Source: Wenzhouxiangella sp. XN201 (GTDB lineage Bacteria; Pseudomonadota; Gammaproteobacteria; Xanthomonadales; Wenzhouxiangellaceae). From it: a stretch of 64,000 nucleotides of DNA. Where the stretch lies: assembly GCF_011008905.1 (NCBI RefSeq), contig NZ_JAAIVI010000017.1, positions 1,651,750 to 1,715,749 of the forward strand, read 5' to 3'. Within the stretch, counting starts at the first letter, position 1. Each line of letters opens with the position of its first letter. The notes below the pieces were generated by a model. The model ran no database searches, was not told the DNA's origin, and saw only the letters and a program-made list of their open reading frames with translations. The position numbers and the translations under genes are program-made. This document shows positions 37,226 to 39,157 of the stretch, one piece after another.

Positions 37226-38389
<1,164 letters not shown>

Positions 38390-38574: not shown

Positions 38575-38602
38575 TTGACAGTGCCTGAGCGCCCCGTACA
38601 AT
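38575..38602 (+). promoter_or_regulatory. sigma-70 promoter of the sRNA gene
   Basis: A perfect TTGACA at 38575-38580 is followed after 16 bp by TACAAT at 38597-38602. Transcription is expected to start near 38609, directly before the first hairpin of the RNA. Confidence 0.8.
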
Positions 38603-38608
38603 CTTAGT

Positions 38609-38722
38609 TTCCGGACCGGGGTTCCCCCCTTCCCCATCCGGATCGTGGCCCAGGTTCCCCCCTTGCCTGGGCCACACCTAACACGGCGGCCGGAGCTCCC
38701 GCACTCCGGCCGCCTTCTTTTT
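38609..38722 (+). ncRNA. C-rich-loop small RNA, sX13-like
   Basis: A predicted 114-nt RNA with a strong promoter, no open frame and an intrinsic terminator. Hairpin 1 (38610-38642) pairs TCCGGA and GGGG with CCCC and TCCGGA; hairpin 2 (38645-38675) has a perfect 10-bp stem GTGGCCCAGG. Both expose the same loop TTCCCCCCTT. Hairpin 3 is the terminator, with a further C-rich loop (CTCCCGCA). Loops of this kind can pair with G-rich ribosome-binding sites. Xanthomonas sX13 is, from memory, of nearly the same length with C-rich loops; homology is inference and covariance is not tested. Confidence 0.75.
38685..38722 (+). terminator. intrinsic terminator of the sRNA
   Basis: A perfect 11-bp stem, GGCGGCCGGAG (38685-38695) with CTCCGGCCGCC (38704-38714), 8-nt loop, then TTCTTTTT. 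Confidence 0.9.
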
Positions 38723-38735
38723 GGCCAGACAAAAC

Positions 38736-38765
38736 TTGGAAAACCCCGGCGGCTTGCACTATAAT
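38736..38765 (+). promoter_or_regulatory. promoter of tRNA-Leu
   Basis: TTGGAA at 38736-38741, an 18-bp spacer and a perfect TATAAT at 38760-38765. Initiation is expected near 38772, about 9 nt before the mature tRNA. Confidence 0.7.
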
Positions 38766-38780
38766 GCCGCGCTCCCACCA

Positions 38781-38867
38781 GCCCAGGTGGCGGAATTGGT
38801 AGACGCGCTAGCTTCAGGTGCTAGTATCCGAAAGGATGTGGGAGTTCGAGTCTCCCCCTGGGCACCA
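38781..38867 (+). tRNA. tRNA-Leu (anticodon CAG)
   Basis: An 87-nt class II tRNA including the encoded CCA. The acceptor arms GCCCAGG and CCTGGGC pair fully, with discriminator A. The D-loop contains AATTGGTAGA; the anticodon arm is CTAGC-TTCAGGT-GCTAG, giving CAG, which reads CUG codons. The long variable arm is TATCCGAAAGGATG, and the T-arm is present (GGGAGTTCGAGTCTCCC). No defect is seen. Confidence 0.97.
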
Positions 38868-38978: not shown

Positions 38979-39157
38979 GCTAGTATCCGAAAGGATGTGG
39001 GGCCTTGGAGCACCTTCCAGGCGCCCAGAGCATCTCCCCACAGAGAACCCCCGAGATACGGATCTGATTCCGATCACGGAGTCAGTACGGCTTCGCGCAA
39101 AGCGCGGAGAAGTGCTGACGGAGTTCCGACCCAGCTCGAGTCTCCCCCTGGGCACCA
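38979..39157 (+). pseudogene. split fragments of a second tRNA-Leu
   Basis: Bases 38979-39001 repeat 23 nt of the tRNA (GCTAGTATCCGAAAGGATGT and the next three bases, from 38820). Bases 39136-39157 repeat its last 22 nt (TCGAGTCTCCCCCTGGGC and ACCA). The two pieces are in the right order but are separated by 134 bp of unrelated sequence, and the 5' half is missing. This is either a broken tandem tRNA-Leu copy or the remains of an insertion at the tRNA 3' end, whose last 22 bp form direct repeats 290 bp apart. The whole 38868-39249 spacer has no gene. Confidence 0.75.

Follow-up and report, generated by a model that had tools for sequence, protein, structure and literature searches.

The sX13 RNA of Xanthomonas (Rfam family RF02232, Xanthomonadaceae) forms three hairpins with C-rich loops, is encoded at polA, and represses mRNAs via contacts between these loops and G-rich motifs (PMC3771888). 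It is short and structured, the C-rich sequences occupy the apical loops, and the proposed pairing involves G-rich motifs near start codons. Hairpins with C-rich loops that resemble the anti-Shine–Dalgarno sequence occur also in ar14 of α-proteobacteria (RF02344, with three CUCC-type loops in the consensus) and in other RNAs with anti-Shine–Dalgarno loops. Regulatory RNAs can, in addition, derive from tRNA transcripts. In E. coli, processing of a tRNA-Leu transcript releases a spacer from its 3′ side, the leuZ 3′ ETS, which acts as a sponge of small RNAs, as summarized in PMC8166272 (citing Lalaouna 2015).

We analyzed a 64,000-nt stretch of DNA of Wenzhouxiangella sp. XN201 (hereafter the window, to which coordinates refer unless a contig or locus is given). 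It contains a predicted RNA that has in common with sX13 a short structured form and C-rich apical loops that may pair with G-rich motifs near start codons, and with ar14 the anti-Shine–Dalgarno-like character of these loops. Unlike both, it has two C-loop hairpins instead of three and, unlike sX13, it lies next to a tRNA-Leu(CAG) gene and not at polA. Like the leuZ 3′ ETS, as that source describes it, it would derive from a tRNA-Leu transcript; however, the element is a 5′ leader with C-loops and, in the window's genus, it stands alone. A search of Rfam with the RNA returns no fitting family (at thresholds up to E = 10, ar14 does not appear), and we found no report of a small RNA from Wenzhouxiangella in the open-licence literature.

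The small RNA gene

The predicted elements of the gene are as follows.

38575–38602, plus strand: sigma-70 promoter of the small RNA, TTGACA-16-TACAAT (11 of 12 consensus positions)
38609–38722, plus strand: standalone small RNA transcript, 114 nt, start and end predicted (from promoter, fold, terminator, and conservation in the genus)
38610–38642, plus strand: hairpin 1, 10 pairs and an internal loop (compensatory pairs; 95.6% of cells paired)
38645–38675, plus strand: hairpin 2, 11 pairs (100% of cells paired; changes on both sides in 4 pairs)
38685–38722, plus strand: intrinsic terminator of the small RNA, an 11-bp stem (38685–38714) followed by TTCTTTTT (present in standalone relatives, absent in leader-type ones)

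The initial annotation had proposed, for positions 38575–38722, a compact small RNA with a consensus promoter, two strong hairpins with identical C-rich loops, and an intrinsic terminator. The sequence and positions agree with those given there, and each of these elements is recovered. The loop TTCCCCCCTT is present twice, at 38622–38631 in hairpin 1 and at 38655–38664 in hairpin 2, where a possible U-G pair would reduce it to 9 nt. In the 3.13-Mb genome, GGTTCCCCCCTT occurs exactly two times, both inside the small RNA. The terminator loop is CTCCCGCA in the window's copy and is not kept in relatives. The 114-nt RNA folds with −66 kcal/mol (z = −7.6), and none of 200 shuffled sequences is equally stable. 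Promoter-like sites number 4 in 5 kb, versus 0.9 in shuffled sequences, and in all readable relatives the −35 TTGAC(A) and the −10 box of the small RNA promoter are kept while the spacer between them diverges. Short open frames overlap the small RNA, but they are unnecessary to account for the pattern of conservation.

Conservation and covariation of the two hairpins

With BLASTN, the RNA finds matches in 20 of 41 genomes, all within the window's genus. In the alignment of the two-hairpin core (70 nt; 22 copies, 18 of them distinct), 97.9% of the pair cells hold standard pairs, and compensatory changes affect 8 of the 21 pairs, a result reached by none of 500 shuffles. Sliding the pairing partners along the alignment abolishes the covariation signal. 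A covariance model of the core matches 37 of the 43 Wenzhouxiangellaceae genomes, covering six of the family's seven genera; among 398 genomes of the order, it retrieves one more. W. sediminis XDB06 is one of the organisms that carry the RNA. Five genomes of the same genus and one genome of genus g21 of the family are without a match, several of them fragmented; many of the relatives are represented by metagenome assemblies that are fragmented. When genera, or two families, are compared, the stems are wholly different, while both loops remain near (U)UCCCCC(C)UU.

Because the comparison yields both BLASTN matches and compensatory pairing, a structured RNA gene is present beyond what chance would give. 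On this comparative sequence evidence, the gene is real; it encodes a bacterial small RNA with two C-rich loops that had not been described before, and its transcription is predicted from its signals.

Two arrangements in front of tRNA-Leu(CAG)

Downstream from the small RNA follow, on the same strand:

38736–38765, plus strand: separate promoter of the tRNA gene, TTGGAA-18-TATAAT (10 of 12 positions; a promoter with 10–11 of 12 is found here in 23 of 23 standalone loci)
38781–38867, plus strand: tRNA-Leu(CAG) gene (ARAGORN, Rfam tRNA model, motif count)

The link to this tRNA gene is absent from the initial annotation. The tRNA-Leu(CAG) motif occurs once in the genome and at most once per relative tested, so the tRNA is apparently single-copy, a count that a divergent second copy would escape. 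At all loci with readable context, tRNA-Leu(CAG) follows downstream from the RNA, with the exception of one genome of genus g17 (G047, locus L110). There, the tRNA motif is found about 1 kb downstream from the two-hairpin element, with no clear terminator, and the locus is either a third arrangement or a rearrangement.

At the other loci, two states are observed. In the window's genus and in its sister genus g16, the last C-loop is 108–170 nt before the tRNA, and all 23 loci checked have, in the interval, a terminator with a U-run and a promoter close to consensus (TTGACA-like, spacer of 17 or 18 nt, TATAAT). The last C-loop is only 11–27 nt before the tRNA in three other genera of the same family (g18, g19, and g20) and in a second family of Xanthomonadales, f8, where at least six genera show this state (g8, g26, g34, g36, g40, and g52). 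Such a gap is too short for a promoter, so the hairpins must belong to the tRNA transcript, as a pre-tRNA leader. In the leaders of g36 and of genome G134, no U-run follows hairpin 2 and transcription must therefore run on into the tRNA; in those of g18–g20, a U-run is present after hairpin 2, and leaky termination is possible there. The window's copy, with its own terminator and a separate tRNA promoter, is not a 5′ leader; the leader state is that of g18–g20 and f8.

A pattern search for the leader arrangement retrieves 27 of 398 genomes of the order, with no control matches. Beyond Xanthomonadales, in 369 genomes sampled from the class, no C-loop is found close before tRNA-Leu(CAG), although the first tRNA pattern was blind to families with a differing tRNA-Leu (for example f2 and f12), where the negatives are weak. 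With a relaxed tRNA pattern, two extra genomes of f12 appear; the start of the tRNA and the upstream sequence differ, and these are probably chance matches that we do not retain.

Two minor features of the neighborhood may be mentioned. A tRNA-Leu (TAG) gene is often located 100–400 nt after the leader-type tRNA, on the same strand (L106–L109, L097, L100–L104); in several standalone genomes it is near, on the opposite strand, whereas in L015 the strand is the same. In the window, parts of tRNA-Leu(CAG) recur as displaced direct copies at 38979–39001 (23 nt, 100%) and at 39133–39157 (25 nt, 96%, the 3′ end included); an element that had integrated at this tRNA may have left them behind.

A probable passage from leader to separate gene

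On the other side of the RNA lies a protein gene:

37226–38389, minus strand: acyl-CoA dehydrogenase-like gene, divergent neighbor (tblastn about 80%–92% identity in relatives; family name by inspection only)

This gene flanks the RNA in the standalone genera and also in the leader genus g20, and the locus is thus orthologous in the two states. In the tree of the flanking gene, one branch separates leader from standalone copies (support 100/97) and one change between the states suffices, with rows L012, L013, and L020 called standalone by genus, as their contigs end before the tRNA. Since f8, g18, and g19 are also in the leader state, parsimony would place the leader as the ancestral state, from which the standalone gene derives. 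It thus seems, from the distribution of the two arrangements, that a tRNA leader became a gene of its own in the lineage of the window's genome. At first, the two-hairpin element would have stood at the 5′ end of the tRNA-Leu(CAG) precursor, as its leader; later, in the common ancestor of g16 and the window's genus, the element would have gained a terminator and the tRNA a promoter. In the leader form, the element would be freed by RNase P cleavage at the 5′ end of the tRNA or, in those leaders that have a U-run after hairpin 2, by partial termination at this hairpin.

The ancestry of new small RNA genes is usually not visible. Here, present-day genomes retain both states at an orthologous locus, the change falls on a single branch of the tree, and the birth of a standalone small RNA from a tRNA leader is open to direct study.

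The C-loops and ribosome-binding sites

The sequence AAGGGGG is a variant of the Shine–Dalgarno sequence, and the loops of the RNA are complementary to it, in agreement with the initial suggestion that C-rich loops can pair with G-rich Shine–Dalgarno sites. The two rigid stems would each display an unpaired UUCCCCCCUU loop as a mimic of the anti-Shine–Dalgarno sequence, and pairing of these loops with ribosome-binding sites of the AAGGGG type would block translation. Because the stems change completely between genera and the loops are constant, the loops are probably the working part of the RNA. By analogy with sX13, pairing with AAGGGGG-type sites is the best-supported mechanism. The persistence of loops and covarying stems after separation from the tRNA argues, in turn, for action in trans. 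We consider it reasonably likely that the RNA is a trans-acting small RNA of Wenzhouxiangellaceae with loops mimicking the anti-Shine–Dalgarno sequence, first a tRNA leader and later a transcription unit of its own.

The search for targets used AAGGGGG, the 7-nt complement of the loops, in front of ATG; the shorter GGGG is too common in a GC-rich genome. Over 30 genomes of the genus, AAGGGGG before ATG occurs 382 times, versus 160 for the reversed control (about 2.4-fold), an excess that ordinary Shine–Dalgarno use could explain. In the genome of the window, two open reading frames of at least 250 aa stand behind AAGGGGG (264 and 311 aa, uncharacterized, 3 kb apart). A comparison of five genomes yields no target common to them by homology. 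Near these two genes, outside the window, there is a Gabija defense pair (GajA and GajB; L157:10714–14300; PADLOC E below 1e-180).

A more tentative proposal, to which we give somewhat less than even weight, concerns the leader of the apparently single-copy tRNA-Leu(CAG) in several genera of Xanthomonadales. It may be a regulatory RNA freed by tRNA maturation, which would couple synthesis of the CUG-decoding tRNA one to one with repression of G-rich ribosome-binding sites; in Wenzhouxiangella, terminator and promoter would have uncoupled the two. We found no precedent for a regulatory bacterial tRNA 5′ leader among the open-licence papers listed. Should the leader form also act in trans, bacteria would have a regulatory pre-tRNA leader on the 5′ side, beside the leuZ 3′ ETS.

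Alternative readings of the hairpins

Alternatively, the hairpins could have a role in cis: placed in the leader, they would adjust how tRNA-Leu(CAG) is transcribed or processed, through pausing, attenuation, or guidance of RNase E or P, and the standalone copy would be a relic. The leader position in two families in front of an apparently single-copy tRNA agrees with such a role, and the U-runs after hairpin 2 in g18–g20 resemble a leaky terminator before the tRNA. However, a relic should decay, whereas throughout the window's genus the loops are kept and the stems covary despite the terminator and the new tRNA promoter; besides, attenuation requires stems but not constant C-rich loops. We regard a role in cis as unlikely.

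Less likely still, the C-rich loops could be a motif that binds a protein or sponges a small RNA rather than one that pairs with mRNAs. The spacer of E. coli leuZ, as presented in PMC8166272 (citing Lalaouna 2015), is an instance of a small RNA sponge made from a tRNA transcript, and the AAGGGGG search in five genomes found no conserved mRNA target. No G-rich small RNA partner was identified, though, and two identical loops complementary to AAGGGG simply fit pairing with ribosome-binding sites, as in the trans-acting reading that we prefer.

The sX13-type RNA at polA

The initial annotation had also likened the RNA to sX13, with homology as a possibility. The likeness holds for size and C-rich loops but not for hairpin number, locus, or model score. 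In the covariance search that had been suggested as a check, the sX13 model scores 12.2 bits on the RNA (E = 4.4), against a gathering score of 50, and has no match in any of 30 genomes of the genus; this is background, yet the RNA is nonetheless conserved in relatives. The polA gene is located at C17 228863–229993 and the small RNA at 1690359, so the two are not adjacent. Directly downstream from polA in the same genome, at about 230.06–230.17 kb (L047:2732–2847), there is a separate sX13-type RNA with the three C-loop hairpins required for sX13. The background score, the two loops, the tRNA-Leu(CAG) locus, and this separate RNA rule out an identity with sX13, and a true homolog of it that has been relocated is highly improbable, notwithstanding the similar size, the C-rich loops, and the strong terminator.

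The model of the small RNA does match the polA-linked RNAs, but weakly (24 bits at best, with E = 0.0024 in 31 kb), a result that would agree with sX13 homology but that shared architecture alone predicts; it is compatible with distant kinship or with convergence. The three-hairpin RNA downstream from polA is present at the 13 other polA loci of the genus that were examined. It scores 28.8 bits with the sX13 model and 40.7 bits with that of ar14, both below the Rfam cut-offs, and extends the sX13 type beyond Xanthomonadaceae.
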